IMG/VR virus record: IMGVR_UViG_3300017764_000034
Location: 1 to 34,129 of that record
Origin: a virus
Direction: 5' to 3' (one strand)
Length of the DNA stretch: 34,129 nt
Of the stretch, positions 21,118 to 23,185 are shown piece after piece. Numbering within the stretch: the stretch's first letter is position 1; each line of letters opens with the position of its first letter. The translations under genes and the position numbers were made by a program. The notes beneath the pieces were generated by a model. It did not search any database. It was not told the origin of the DNA and was given only the letters and a program-made list of their open reading frames with translations.

Positions 21118-21127
21118 GCGTTTATTC
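21118..21127 (+). promoter_or_regulatory. GCGTTTATTC upstream element, copy 1
   Basis: The 10-mer GCGTTTATTC lies 84 bases before the ATG of the 122-aa gene. The same 10-mer is 82 bases before the ATG of the 381-aa gene. The conserved distance suggests a shared promoter or activator site. The -10 region after this copy is not clear. Confidence 0.4.
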
Positions 21128-21174
21128 TATTGCGCCTACCTACCTTCTCGGCGTACCTTCTCTACGTACTAACG

Positions 21175-21201
21175 CCCCGGTAAGGGGAAGGAAACGAGAG
21201 A
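21175..21201 (+). promoter_or_regulatory. Conserved stem-loop/Shine-Dalgarno leader, copy 1
   Basis: CCCC-GGTAA-GGGG can form a four-pair hairpin and runs directly into AAGGAAACGAGAGA before the ATG at 21202. Two close copies lie before the genes at 21719 and 22967. The hairpin abuts the Shine-Dalgarno, so it could tune translation or be bound by a regulator. Confidence 0.7.
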
Positions 21202-21570
21202 ATGAACGACGCAACCGAGACCATGACGACTAAAGTTATGGGTATGATTTCTAAATGGTCCGACTATCCAACCGCGGATATTTACTTAGACGGCGCCCGT
21301 ATCGGGCGGGTAGCTCTAGAAGACGGAGAGCGCCTTAACACTTACGAGCCGCGCATAGAAGCTCGCTACTCTGTTACCATCTACCTTTGGAAAGCCTCCG
21401 TTGCTACGTGGTGGTACCAGAATAAACGAGACCGAGACGTGGACTATAAAAACTGCGCTACCTTTTACTTCCCCGCGGCGGACTTCCCCTCCGCTCGTAA
21501 GACTAAGGACGTACCCGAGAACCTGAAGGACTTCGTTAGCCGCGTCGTTACGGGTCTCGTCGTAGAGTAG
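21202..21570 (+). CDS. Accessory protein with a single copy of a repeated unknown domain
   Basis: This 122-aa protein has a domain at about residues 25-120. It has a strand pair ADIYLDGARIGRV, an aromatic core (SVTIYLWKASVATWWYQN) and a C-terminal helix ENLKDFVSRVVTGLVVE. The strand pair and the helix 'LK.FV..VVTG' recur twice in the 381-aa protein downstream. No known family is recognised. It sits between a conserved leader and a strong terminator, so it is its own transcription unit. It is probably an early or accessory host-interaction factor. Confidence 0.6.
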   Translation: MNDATETMTTKVMGMISKWSDYPTADIYLDGARIGRVALEDGERLNTYEPRIEARYSVTIYLWKASVATWWYQNKRDRDVDYKNCATFYFPAADFPSARKTKDVPENLKDFVSRVVTGLVVE

Positions 21571-21596
21571 ACCCCATACCCGCGCCCCCTACCAAG

Positions 21597-21627
21597 CCCG
21601 CCCGGCATTAGCTCGGCGGGTTTTTTT
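21597..21627 (+). terminator. Rho-independent terminator after the 122-aa gene
   Basis: CCCGCC (21597-21602) pairs with GGCGGG (21615-21620) around a 12-base loop, followed at once by seven T residues (21621-21627). It lies 27 bases after the stop. Confidence 0.85.
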
Positions 21628-21636
21628 ACGCCTTAC

Positions 21637-21676
21637 GCGTTTATTCGCTTGTTAAGTTACTCTCTATGCGTATACT
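21637..21676 (+). promoter_or_regulatory. Promoter candidate for the 381-aa gene, with GCGTTTATTC copy 2
   Basis: GCGTTTATTC at 21637-21646 repeats the element before the previous gene. TTGTTA (21649-21654) and TATACT (21671-21676), 16 bp apart, form a reasonable -35/-10 pair. The predicted start near 21683 would give a short leader containing the conserved hairpin. The promoter follows directly after a terminator, consistent with an independent unit. Confidence 0.55.
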
Positions 21677-21691
21677 CAGGGGGAATCAACG

Positions 21692-21718
21692 CCCCGGTAA
21701 GGGGAAGGAGCCGAGAGA
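21692..21718 (+). promoter_or_regulatory. Conserved stem-loop/Shine-Dalgarno leader, copy 2
   Basis: CCCCGGTAAGGGGAAGGAG followed by CCGAGAGA precedes the ATG at 21719. It differs from copy 1 only in the bases just after the AAGG core and is identical over this stretch to copy 3. Confidence 0.75.
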
Positions 21719-22864
21719 ATGACTAAGGTTTACGACAACGCGGGCATCGTTCACTTCGGAAAAATGGAGGGAGACGCCGAGGCGGGGGAGATGGATATCT
21801 ACGCTACCGTAGAGCAAGGGGTAGAGCCCGTCGTTATCGGACATATCGAGAAGATTACGGACGCCGAGGACGTAGGGCTTACTACTTGCGTTTGGCGGCA
21901 TACGGTAGAGGCTTACGAGCTTGTCATCTATTCTCACGCCCGCGGGGCCTCCGGTCTTAAGGTTAACCTCGTAGGGCTCGAAGGGTACGACGCGCACCTT
22001 AGGGGGCTAGTTACGCCGTACCTCGACGAAGACGGAGACCTTACCCGCACCTTCGAGGTCGAAGAGGGTAAGTCCGCTCTCTACACTCTCGGACAGGTTA
22101 AGCGCTTCGTTAAGGGCGTCGTAGCCGGATGGGACTACAATAGCCCCGGGGTTAAGGCTTACGTCTCGGGTAACGAGACCGAGACCGAGACCGAGACCGA
22201 GACCGAGACCGAGACCGAGACCGAGACCGAGACCGCCCGCTACGACTTCGAGGAGCAGGACCCCCGCGGACACGAAGACACGCGTATTAAAATACGCCGT
22301 AACGGGGTAGCCATTGGCCTCGTTTGTACGGCTTTCGGCGTCGCTAAACACCCTTACGAGGTTACGCTACTCGGTAGCCGCGTTACCTTCGACGCCTCTG
22401 TTATCGAGGCTTACGCGGCGGACTATTACGTAGAGGACGGCGTTATAGAGCTACGCTCGGAGTCTCTAGACGAGCTTAAGCGCTTTGTCGAGGAGGTCGT
22501 TACGGGTTTTGCTAAGCCCGTCTCTACGACGGTCGTAGACGGCGATACCGTTTACTTCGTCCGCCGCGTTAACCCCGGTAACGAGTACGGCGTTAAGGTA
22601 CGAAACAGCCCGCCGCTTGTAGCTAAACGTACTCTAATCGAGTTTTACGTTAAAGAGACCCCCGGCTATTCGTGGGATAAGCTAGAGGAGATACACGGGC
22701 CTCTAGGGTACTTCGTCTCTCGGTATTACTTGTCTACGCTTAACGCGAGCCGGTACGACTCGGAAATCCTCGACCTTGGAAGTGGCTACGAGATTAGCCG
22801 AGAGAAGGTTAGCGGCGCTCTTGATAGCCTCTACGCCCTTAACCTACACGTTAACGCCCCTTAG
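21719..22864 (+). CDS. Accessory protein with two copies of the unknown domain and an (Glu-Thr)10 linker
   Basis: This 381-aa protein has domain copy a at about residues 25-140, ending GQVKRFVKGVVAGW. A linker of ten Glu-Thr pairs at 153-172 is followed by domain copy b at about 186-266 (TRIKIRRNGVAIGLV and DELKRFVEEVVTGF). A different C-terminal domain (about 267-381) is rich in Tyr and beta/alpha segments (GPLGYFVSRYYLSTLN). The linker is encoded by ten perfect GAGACC repeats, so its length may vary between isolates without frame loss. The domain is shared with the 122-aa gene and has no recognised family. Leader and promoter suggest co-regulation with its neighbours. Confidence 0.65.
   Translation: MTKVYDNAGIVHFGKMEGDAEAGEMDIYATVEQGVEPVVIGHIEKITDAEDVGLTTCVWRHTVEAYELVIYSHARGASGLKVNLVGLEGYDAHLRGLVTPYLDEDGDLTRTFEVEEGKSALYTLGQVKRFVKGVVAGWDYNSPGVKAYVSGNETETETETETETETETETETARYDFEEQDPRGHEDTRIKIRRNGVAIGLVCTAFGVAKHPYEVTLLGSRVTFDASVIEAYAADYYVEDGVIELRSESLDELKRFVEEVVTGFAKPVSTTVVDGDTVYFVRRVNPGNEYGVKVRNSPPLVAKRTLIEFYVKETPGYSWDKLEEIHGPLGYFVSRYYLSTLNASRYDSEILDLGSGYEISREKVSGALDSLYALNLHVNAP
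22175..22234 (+). repeat. (GAGACC)10 hexanucleotide tandem repeat
   Basis: Ten perfect copies of GAGACC encode ten Glu-Thr pairs. Hexamer unit length keeps the frame whatever the copy number. No other microsatellite of this length was seen in the window. Confidence 0.97.
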
Positions 22865-22921
22865 GCTTAGCGCCGAGAGGGGCGAGCCTAGATAGGTTCG
22901 CCCCTCTAACGCTACGCCTAA
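22861..22921 (+). terminator. Large near-perfect palindrome after the 381-aa gene
   Basis: The outer arms TTAGGCTTAGCG (22861-22872) and CGCTACGCCTAA (22910-22921) match at 11 of 12 pairs. The inner arms AGAGGGGCGA (22876-22885) and TCGCCCCTCT (22898-22907) are perfect over 10 bp, with a 12-base loop. It begins at the stop codon. There is no T-tract, so it may be a transcript-stabilising hairpin or a factor-dependent terminator rather than a classical one. Confidence 0.65.
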
Positions 22922-22939
22922 GCGTGGTTTAACTAGACT

Positions 22940-22966
22940 CCCCGGTAAGGGGAAGGAGCCGAGAGA
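22940..22966 (+). promoter_or_regulatory. Conserved stem-loop/Shine-Dalgarno leader, copy 3
   Basis: CCCC-GGTAA-GGGG, AAGGAG and CCGAGAGA precede the ATG at 22967, identical to copy 2. The upstream GCGTTTATTC element is missing here, so this gene may depend on read-through from the previous unit. Confidence 0.75.
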
Positions 22967-23185
22967 ATGGCCGAGCTTACTGTTACTTTTACCTACGAAG
23001 AGCTTAAGGCGCTCGCTAAGAAGAAGGCGGGCGAGGTAGGCATACCTAGCGCGGTTTTAGATACGCGGGCTATCTATGCTACGGCGTCTTACGACTTTTG
23101 TAGGGGCGCTACCTTTACTCTCGAAGACCTCGAAGAGACGGAGCTAGACTCCGTTACCGTTACCTTTAAGCTCGGGGGCGCGTAA
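22967..23185 (+). CDS. Small accessory protein with the conserved leader
   Basis: This 72-aa protein has a beta strand start (ELTVTFTYEELKALAKKKAGEVG), a helix, a YDF/FCRG segment and a final TVTFKLGG strand. It does not share the repeated domain of the two previous genes but shares their leader, so the three are probably regulated together. It overlaps the next HTH gene by TAATG, and the two are likely translated together. Function unknown. Confidence 0.55.
   Translation: MAELTVTFTYEELKALAKKKAGEVGIPSAVLDTRAIYATASYDFCRGATFTLEDLEETELDSVTVTFKLGGA

Follow-up and report, generated by a model that had tools for sequence, protein, structure and literature searches.

Between the lysis and replication genes of an uncultured phage, three neighbouring genes start behind almost identical short leaders, and the question raised by this locus is what the leaders do and whether the genes behind them make up one special system. 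The phage is represented by an IMG/VR record of 34,129 bases, all of which was analysed and which is called the window below. It carries genes for terminase, portal, head and tail proteins, a CHAP-type endolysin and a primase-like protein, together with a leftward operon coding for DNA polymerase A, a helicase and an exonuclease. Among GenBank phages there was no DNA-level relative of its tail region and no detectable relative of its portal protein. The window was therefore compared with three related IMG/VR records: L004 (DNA polymerase 70% identical to that of the window), L022 (whose portal shares 76% identity with the L004 portal and whose HTH protein shares 76% with its window counterpart) and L021, a more distant relative than the other two. 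The accessory block lies where the first-pass annotation had put it, with the CHAP endolysin on one side and DNA polymerase A on the other (Table 1). The 156-aa and 76-aa genes ahead of it and the HTH gene after it are kept in all three relatives, and a 57-aa gene is common to the window and L004.

The similarity of the leaders, as first noted, is real and proved to be exact over 18 nt. The sequence CCCCGGTAAGGGGAAGGA (CCCC-GGTAA-GGGG-AAGGA) occurs at 21175, 21692 and 22940, against 0.09 occurrences expected by chance, and AAGGARCCGAGAGAATG is found at the same three sites. No further copy of CCCCGGTAAGGGGAAGGA is present in the 34,129-base record, even when 3 mismatches are allowed. The first base of the leader lies 27 nt before the ATG in 3/3 copies, with the 18-mer ending 9 nt and the hairpin 14 nt ahead of each ATG, and copies 2 and 3 are identical despite unrelated upstream DNA. 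No other IMG/VR record was found to carry the exact leader, a search of GenBank phages returned only chance partial matches, and Rfam gave nothing at the gathering threshold. A sub-threshold match to the Rfam family IsrM (25.9 bits, where 376 are needed) sits on a terminator and was put down to chance.

Promoters and terminators belonging to the unit itself had also been proposed, and sequence elements of both kinds were confirmed. The shared element GCGTTTATTC occurs at 21118, 84 nt ahead of the ATG at 21202, and at 21637, 82 nt ahead of the ATG at 21719; it extends to a longer conserved element of 20 nt, TACGYYTTNYGCGTTTATTC (0.08 expected by chance). The two-part promoter element that contains it was found only at this locus in the four records searched (twice in the window, and in L004 and L022); a match to the promoter pattern in L018 is regarded as chance. 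The 122-aa gene is followed by a strong terminator and the HTH gene by another terminator, and the 14-bp stem-loop behind the 381-aa gene would be either a terminator or an RNA end. The unit had been drawn from 21118 to 23185, but this end falls inside it, as the HTH gene (23185–23385) also belongs to it.

Table 1. Positions of the features of the accessory locus, its flanks and the related leaders (window coordinates unless another record is named).
Feature	Positions	Strand	Remarks
Extended -10 TGTTATAAC of portal operon	2358–2366	+	5 nt ahead of hairpin; same layout in L004 and L022
GGTAA hairpin leader of portal operon (TAGGT/ACCTA)	2372–2386	+	
CHAP endolysin (lysis-type genes)	at 19277		upstream flank of accessory block
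Promoter-like element 1: TACGCTTTATGCGTTTATTC, N23, GCGTA	21108–21155	+	two-part element; 20-nt part, 0.08 expected
Hairpin leader 1: stem CCCC/GGGG, loop GGTAA, SD AAGGA, spacer	21175–21201	+	exact repeat, fold, covariation
122-aa accessory protein	21202–21570	+	no relatives found
Intrinsic terminator after 122-aa gene	21594–21627	+	fold -19.5 kcal/mol, z -3.2, then T7
Promoter element 2: TACGCCTTACGCGTTTATTC, TTGTTA-16-TATACT	21627–21678	+	two-part element; 20-nt conserved part
Hairpin leader 2: CCCC-GGTAA-GGGG-AAGGAG	21692–21718	+	exact repeat, fold, covariation
381-aa accessory protein	21719–22864	+	two halves joined by Glu-Thr repeat linker; no relatives found
CGAGAC hexamer array	22174–22235	+	10.3 copies, 100% identical; codes for (ET)n linker of 381-aa protein
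14-bp stem-loop after 381-aa gene	22876–22907	+	no T run; fold -31.1 kcal/mol, z -6.1
Candidate extended -10 TGGTTTAAC for leader 3	22925–22933	+	read by eye
Hairpin leader 3: (T)CCCC-GGTAA-GGGG(A)-AGGAG	22940–22966	+	exact repeat, fold, covariation
72-aa accessory protein	22967–23185	+	81-aa homologue in L022 at 7454–7696, pairwise E 1e-4
66-aa HTH protein	23185–23385	+	kept in L004, L022 (76%) and L021 (43%); overlaps stop of 72-aa gene
Terminator after HTH gene	23384–23416	+	fold -19.6 kcal/mol, z -3.5, TTTTA tail
DNA polymerase A	23359–25236	-	other flank of accessory block
GGTAA hairpin leader of leftward exonuclease/helicase/polymerase operon (GCGGG/CCCGC)	29327–29341	-	
92-nt repeats of L021	7875–7966, 8277–8368, 8659–8750 (L021)		between unrelated accessory genes; up to 90% identity

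The same locus differs considerably among the relatives. In L004 the small HTH gene is directly preceded by a single promoter and a single leader (GGGC-GATAA-GCCC-AAGGAG), and the site is nearly empty. In L022 the promoter (GCGTTTATTC-N21-GCGTATACT) is followed by one unrelated gene and then by a GGC-GATAA-GCC-AAGGAG leader ahead of an 81-aa gene, which is a homologue of the 72-aa protein of the window. L021 has several unrelated genes here, and a 92-nt repeat made up of a terminator and a leader stands ahead of three of them; in two of the three repeats a different hairpin, GCCGC-TGGG-GCGGC, adjoins the SD (AGGGAG). L021 appears to provide, at this genomic site, a second and independent example of such an architecture. 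The conserved frame of the locus consists of one promoter, one leader and the HTH gene, and the latter is the conserved core of the accessory unit. The interval between the lysis genes and polA can then be read as an accessory site of variable content, made up of cassettes that are expressed separately.

When GRTAA loops on stems were scanned for, more leaders of this kind appeared: one ahead of the portal gene in each of the window, L004 and L022, and one in the window ahead of the small ORF that opens the leftward operon. The first-pass annotation had held that a broad occurrence of the leader before all genes of related phages would speak against its reading, and a wider occurrence was found in part, at the portal gene of three phages and the leftward operon of the window. 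Since the hairpin also precedes the portal and leftward replication operons, the leader is not specific to the accessory module; it appears to be a promoter-proximal element that this phage group uses generally in its 5' UTRs, and the hairpin probably serves as a common signal for expression and does not mark one special gene system. To avoid a post-hoc choice of loop, a count over three genomes took in all 1024 pentaloops on stems of at least 4 pairs. A Shine-Dalgarno (SD) sequence and start codon follow 6 of 8 GGTAA hairpins, compared with 44 of 1060 hairpins overall, the independent count being smaller than six as three of these cases are the identical module copies, and no other loop exceeds 2 leader-like cases. 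The window itself has 7 GRTAA hairpins with at least 4 pairs, compared with 1.1 in shuffled sequences.

The alignment of eight distinct leaders shows a loop of G-R-T-A-A in 8/8, while the stem pairs vary freely. All four stem pairs change on both sides, and 93.8% of the cells are paired compared with 54% in shuffles; sliding the partner by one column cuts the pairing to 53–56%. Several of the eight came from a search that required pairing, but because two of them (before the L004 HTH gene and the L022 81-aa gene) were found by reading, and the portal leaders are orthologous with fixed spacing, the search alone does not account for the covariation. In the portal leaders of the three phages the layout TG-n-TATA-N8-AGGTGRTAAACC is kept at orthologous positions and the outer stems differ. 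The proposal that the three accessory genes are expressed jointly through their shared leader is supported, and is strengthened by these compensatory changes in relatives. The portal leaders have an extended -10 (TGnTATAAC-like), and their stem starts 4–6 nt behind it; for the L004 leader and for leaders 1 and 2 of the window the distance from the -10 is about 12–15 nt. As judged from the -10 positions, the stem would start no more than roughly 10 nt into the predicted transcript, with the SD 0–12 nt later.

The variable content of the locus could also mean that the repeated leaders are recombination linkers, short boundary sequences whose identity is maintained since it allows accessory genes to be swapped by homologous recombination, with no regulatory role beyond that of an ordinary ribosome-binding site. 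Accessory genes that differ among relatives within a conserved frame are in keeping with this, as are the L021 repeats between accessory genes and the identity of leaders 2 and 3, but recombination alone leaves the compensatory stem changes between relatives unexplained, and the hairpin also stands at operons that belong to the fixed core, the portal operon and the leftward one. We consider such a role quite unlikely.

A further claim of the first-pass annotation concerned the proteins: the 122-aa protein and both halves of the 381-aa protein would share a repeated domain (copies A, B and C), making the unit look like an expanded family with joint control of translation and a good candidate for a host-takeover or counter-defence system. 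A C-terminal motif is visible in the three copies (LKDFVSRVVTG, VKRFVKGVVAG and LKRFVEEVVTG), and the DNA at their tails is 62–73% identical over 37 nt. BLASTP of the 122-aa against the 381-aa protein gave no match, and shuffle tests of the copies gave p = 0.25 (A-B), 0.021 (A-C) and 0.015 (B-C), mainly from the C-terminal helix motif LK.FV..VVTG. With the other proteins of the phage as a control, copy C scored 58 against a stretch of the 898-aa tail protein, which is most likely unrelated to it, but 44 against B and 38 against A. Because the alignments of the copies score no better than this best accidental match in the genome, the repeated domain is not established. Structure prediction gave a pLDDT of 33.5 for the 381-aa protein and 51.4 for copy C with A and B as alignment, both too poor for a fold search, and searches of PDB sequences with the domain alignment and with the 381-aa protein returned chance matches only. 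A distant relationship, or a common domain of the three copies, is possible.

Database searches were similarly unproductive. The 122-, 381- and 72-aa proteins had no matches above chance in PHROGs, Pfam, PADLOC or NCBIfam, and no homology there to a characterised anti-defence or host-takeover member; for the 122- and 381-aa proteins nothing similar was found in these databases, IMG/VR, GenBank phages or the genomes of 85k species at the sensitivity used. The only accessory protein with a relative is the 72-aa protein, and that relative is in L022. An expanded family acting in host takeover or counter-defence would fit the shared leaders, the accessory position and the weak similarity of the C-terminal helices, but with the similarity of the copies not significant, no relatives, no defence or anti-defence matches and a leader that is not specific to these genes, it is very unlikely. 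Host takeover or counter-defence found no specific support, in that there were no matches to defence, counter-defence or known phage families, and it is a possibility common to any accessory phage locus.

The explanation we favour, to which we give a probability of about 0.5, is that the GRTAA hairpins of the window, at least five in number, are 5'-UTR elements that shield the 5' end of the mRNA and insulate the SD, and that the locus is a variable site for cassettes. These hairpins would lie in short 5' UTRs between promoter and SD, sharing the pentaloop (GRUAA in RNA) on stems of free sequence, and would mark the first gene of transcription units, namely the portal operon, the leftward replication operon and each of the three accessory genes. 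Forming at or near the 5' end, the hairpin would protect the mRNA from 5'-end-dependent decay, and at the accessory genes, where it ends exactly at the SD, it would keep the SD single-stranded whatever lies upstream. The outcome would be strong and uniform translation of each unit, with the window phage adding separately expressed cassettes (promoter, hairpin-SD, gene and terminator) to the conserved frame. Hairpins that stabilise mRNA at its 5' terminus occur in 5' UTRs of the ompA type, and the likeness extends to the position, close to where the transcript is predicted to start and right ahead of an unpaired SD; however, the GRTAA loop is kept here across operons and phages, and we know of no conserved loop in hairpins of the ompA type. 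Several points count against this explanation. A fixed loop is not needed by a hairpin that merely stabilises, and in L022 the hairpin of the 81-aa gene lies ~40 nt behind the preceding stop codon and has no clear promoter, so that its place is perhaps not at a 5' end. The leaders of the window fold in their sequence context no more stably than shuffles (z 0.35 to 0.84), and for its portal leader another fold would compete if the transcript began further upstream.

The fixed loop makes a common binding protein a serious rival. The hairpins would then be sites for one RNA-binding protein of phage or host that couples the units by N-like antitermination or by translational control, a reading that we hold to be somewhat unlikely. 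The loop of the lambda boxB is GAARA, and the boxB hairpins of lambdoid nut sites resemble those described here in being promoter-proximal, in having a purine-rich pentaloop that may be GNRA-like and in standing at the start of phage operons. The P22 boxB loop, GACAA, forms a GNRA-like pentaloop in which the base between n3 and n4 is looped out and contacts the N peptide (PMC12550061). GRUAA is compatible with this fold and would adopt it with its third base (U) turned out, and a loop that is fixed in 8 distinct leaders, on stems that vary, speaks for a binding site. The HTH protein encoded at 507–833 (minus strand) ends in an arginine-rich tail, which is at most a possible lead to RNA binding; arginine-rich stretches occur in a few small window proteins. 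On the other side, no gap separates the hairpin of the accessory genes from the SD, an unusual arrangement for a nut site, the copies are more numerous, and the module genes are short, monocistronic units with their own terminators. No N-like protein was found among the window proteins searched, none of which had a PHROG match to an antiterminator. No GCTCTTTA-like boxA word lies within the leaders, which counts weakly against a nut site, as the host may use a different boxA; with one mismatch there are 66 such words genome-wide against 45 expected. An extension in which a single protein of phage or host recognises the GRUAA hairpins at the start of accessory, portal and replication units alike, and so switches these units in concert as a phage-wide RNA regulon, seems to us unlikely. 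Such a regulon would amount to a boxB-like code outside the lambdoid phages, placed at the SD and acting by antitermination or translational control.

The closest functional parallel is provided by the start-associated sequences (SAS and ESAS) of cluster K mycobacteriophages, short repeats at the start codons of some non-structural genes (PMC3203893). These genes are often of unrelated families and belong to the variable accessory set, and a role in translation initiation has been proposed; SAS is a fixed 13-nt sequence, GGGATAGGAGCCC, and little support was found for RNA pairing of ESAS (PMC3203893). The window repeat likewise lies a few nt upstream of the start codons of several genes. However, SAS is conserved in sequence and not in structure, whereas in the present leaders the loop alone is fixed, on a stem that covaries, and the element is carried by the structural (portal) and replication operons as well. 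A search of the window for GGGATAGGAGCCC with up to 2 mismatches gave 4 matches (2.2 expected), none at the leaders. The hairpin leaders are not members of SAS, and the resemblance is one of function. Repeated elements at gene starts have thus been known but unexplained, and the compensatory changes seen here show that RNA structure counts. They define by sequence a set of phage 5'-UTR elements in which structure is kept and stem sequence is not, and they mark a variable accessory locus, with genes that can be found by their leader, in a phage group without close GenBank relatives.

Outside the leaders, the most surprising feature of the window is a strand-symmetric bias, seen in nearly every gene, in which CpA/TpG is extremely depleted (odds 0.33) and TpA is in excess (1.86). 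The bias is not common to the relatives (1.01/0.78, 0.72/0.59 and 1.32/0.52), and to our knowledge it is far outside the usual prokaryotic range. CA sites common to both relatives are kept at only 44% in the window. C-to-T deamination at CpA was rejected as the sole cause, as TC to TA changes are also common. The module genes share the bias (CpA odds 0.18–0.44), so they are not very recent arrivals. The gene at 32756–33082 has much weaker CpA depletion (odds 0.76) than the rest and is possibly a recent acquisition. GATC is also scarce, with 4 sites in the window against 67 expected from trinucleotides, while the relatives G003 (L021) and G004 have 348 and 224, and this probably reflects restriction avoidance. 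The window encodes two small HTH paralogues, at 507–833 (minus strand) and 23185–23385 (plus strand), that match each other in BLASTP with E 1e-9. A perfect dyad, GTGTCAA-N7-TTGACAC, is found at 29377–29397 between the divergent leftward and rightward operons, overlapping the likely -35 regions; it looks like a repressor operator, and a repressor-like gene (PHROG) is found at 29953.
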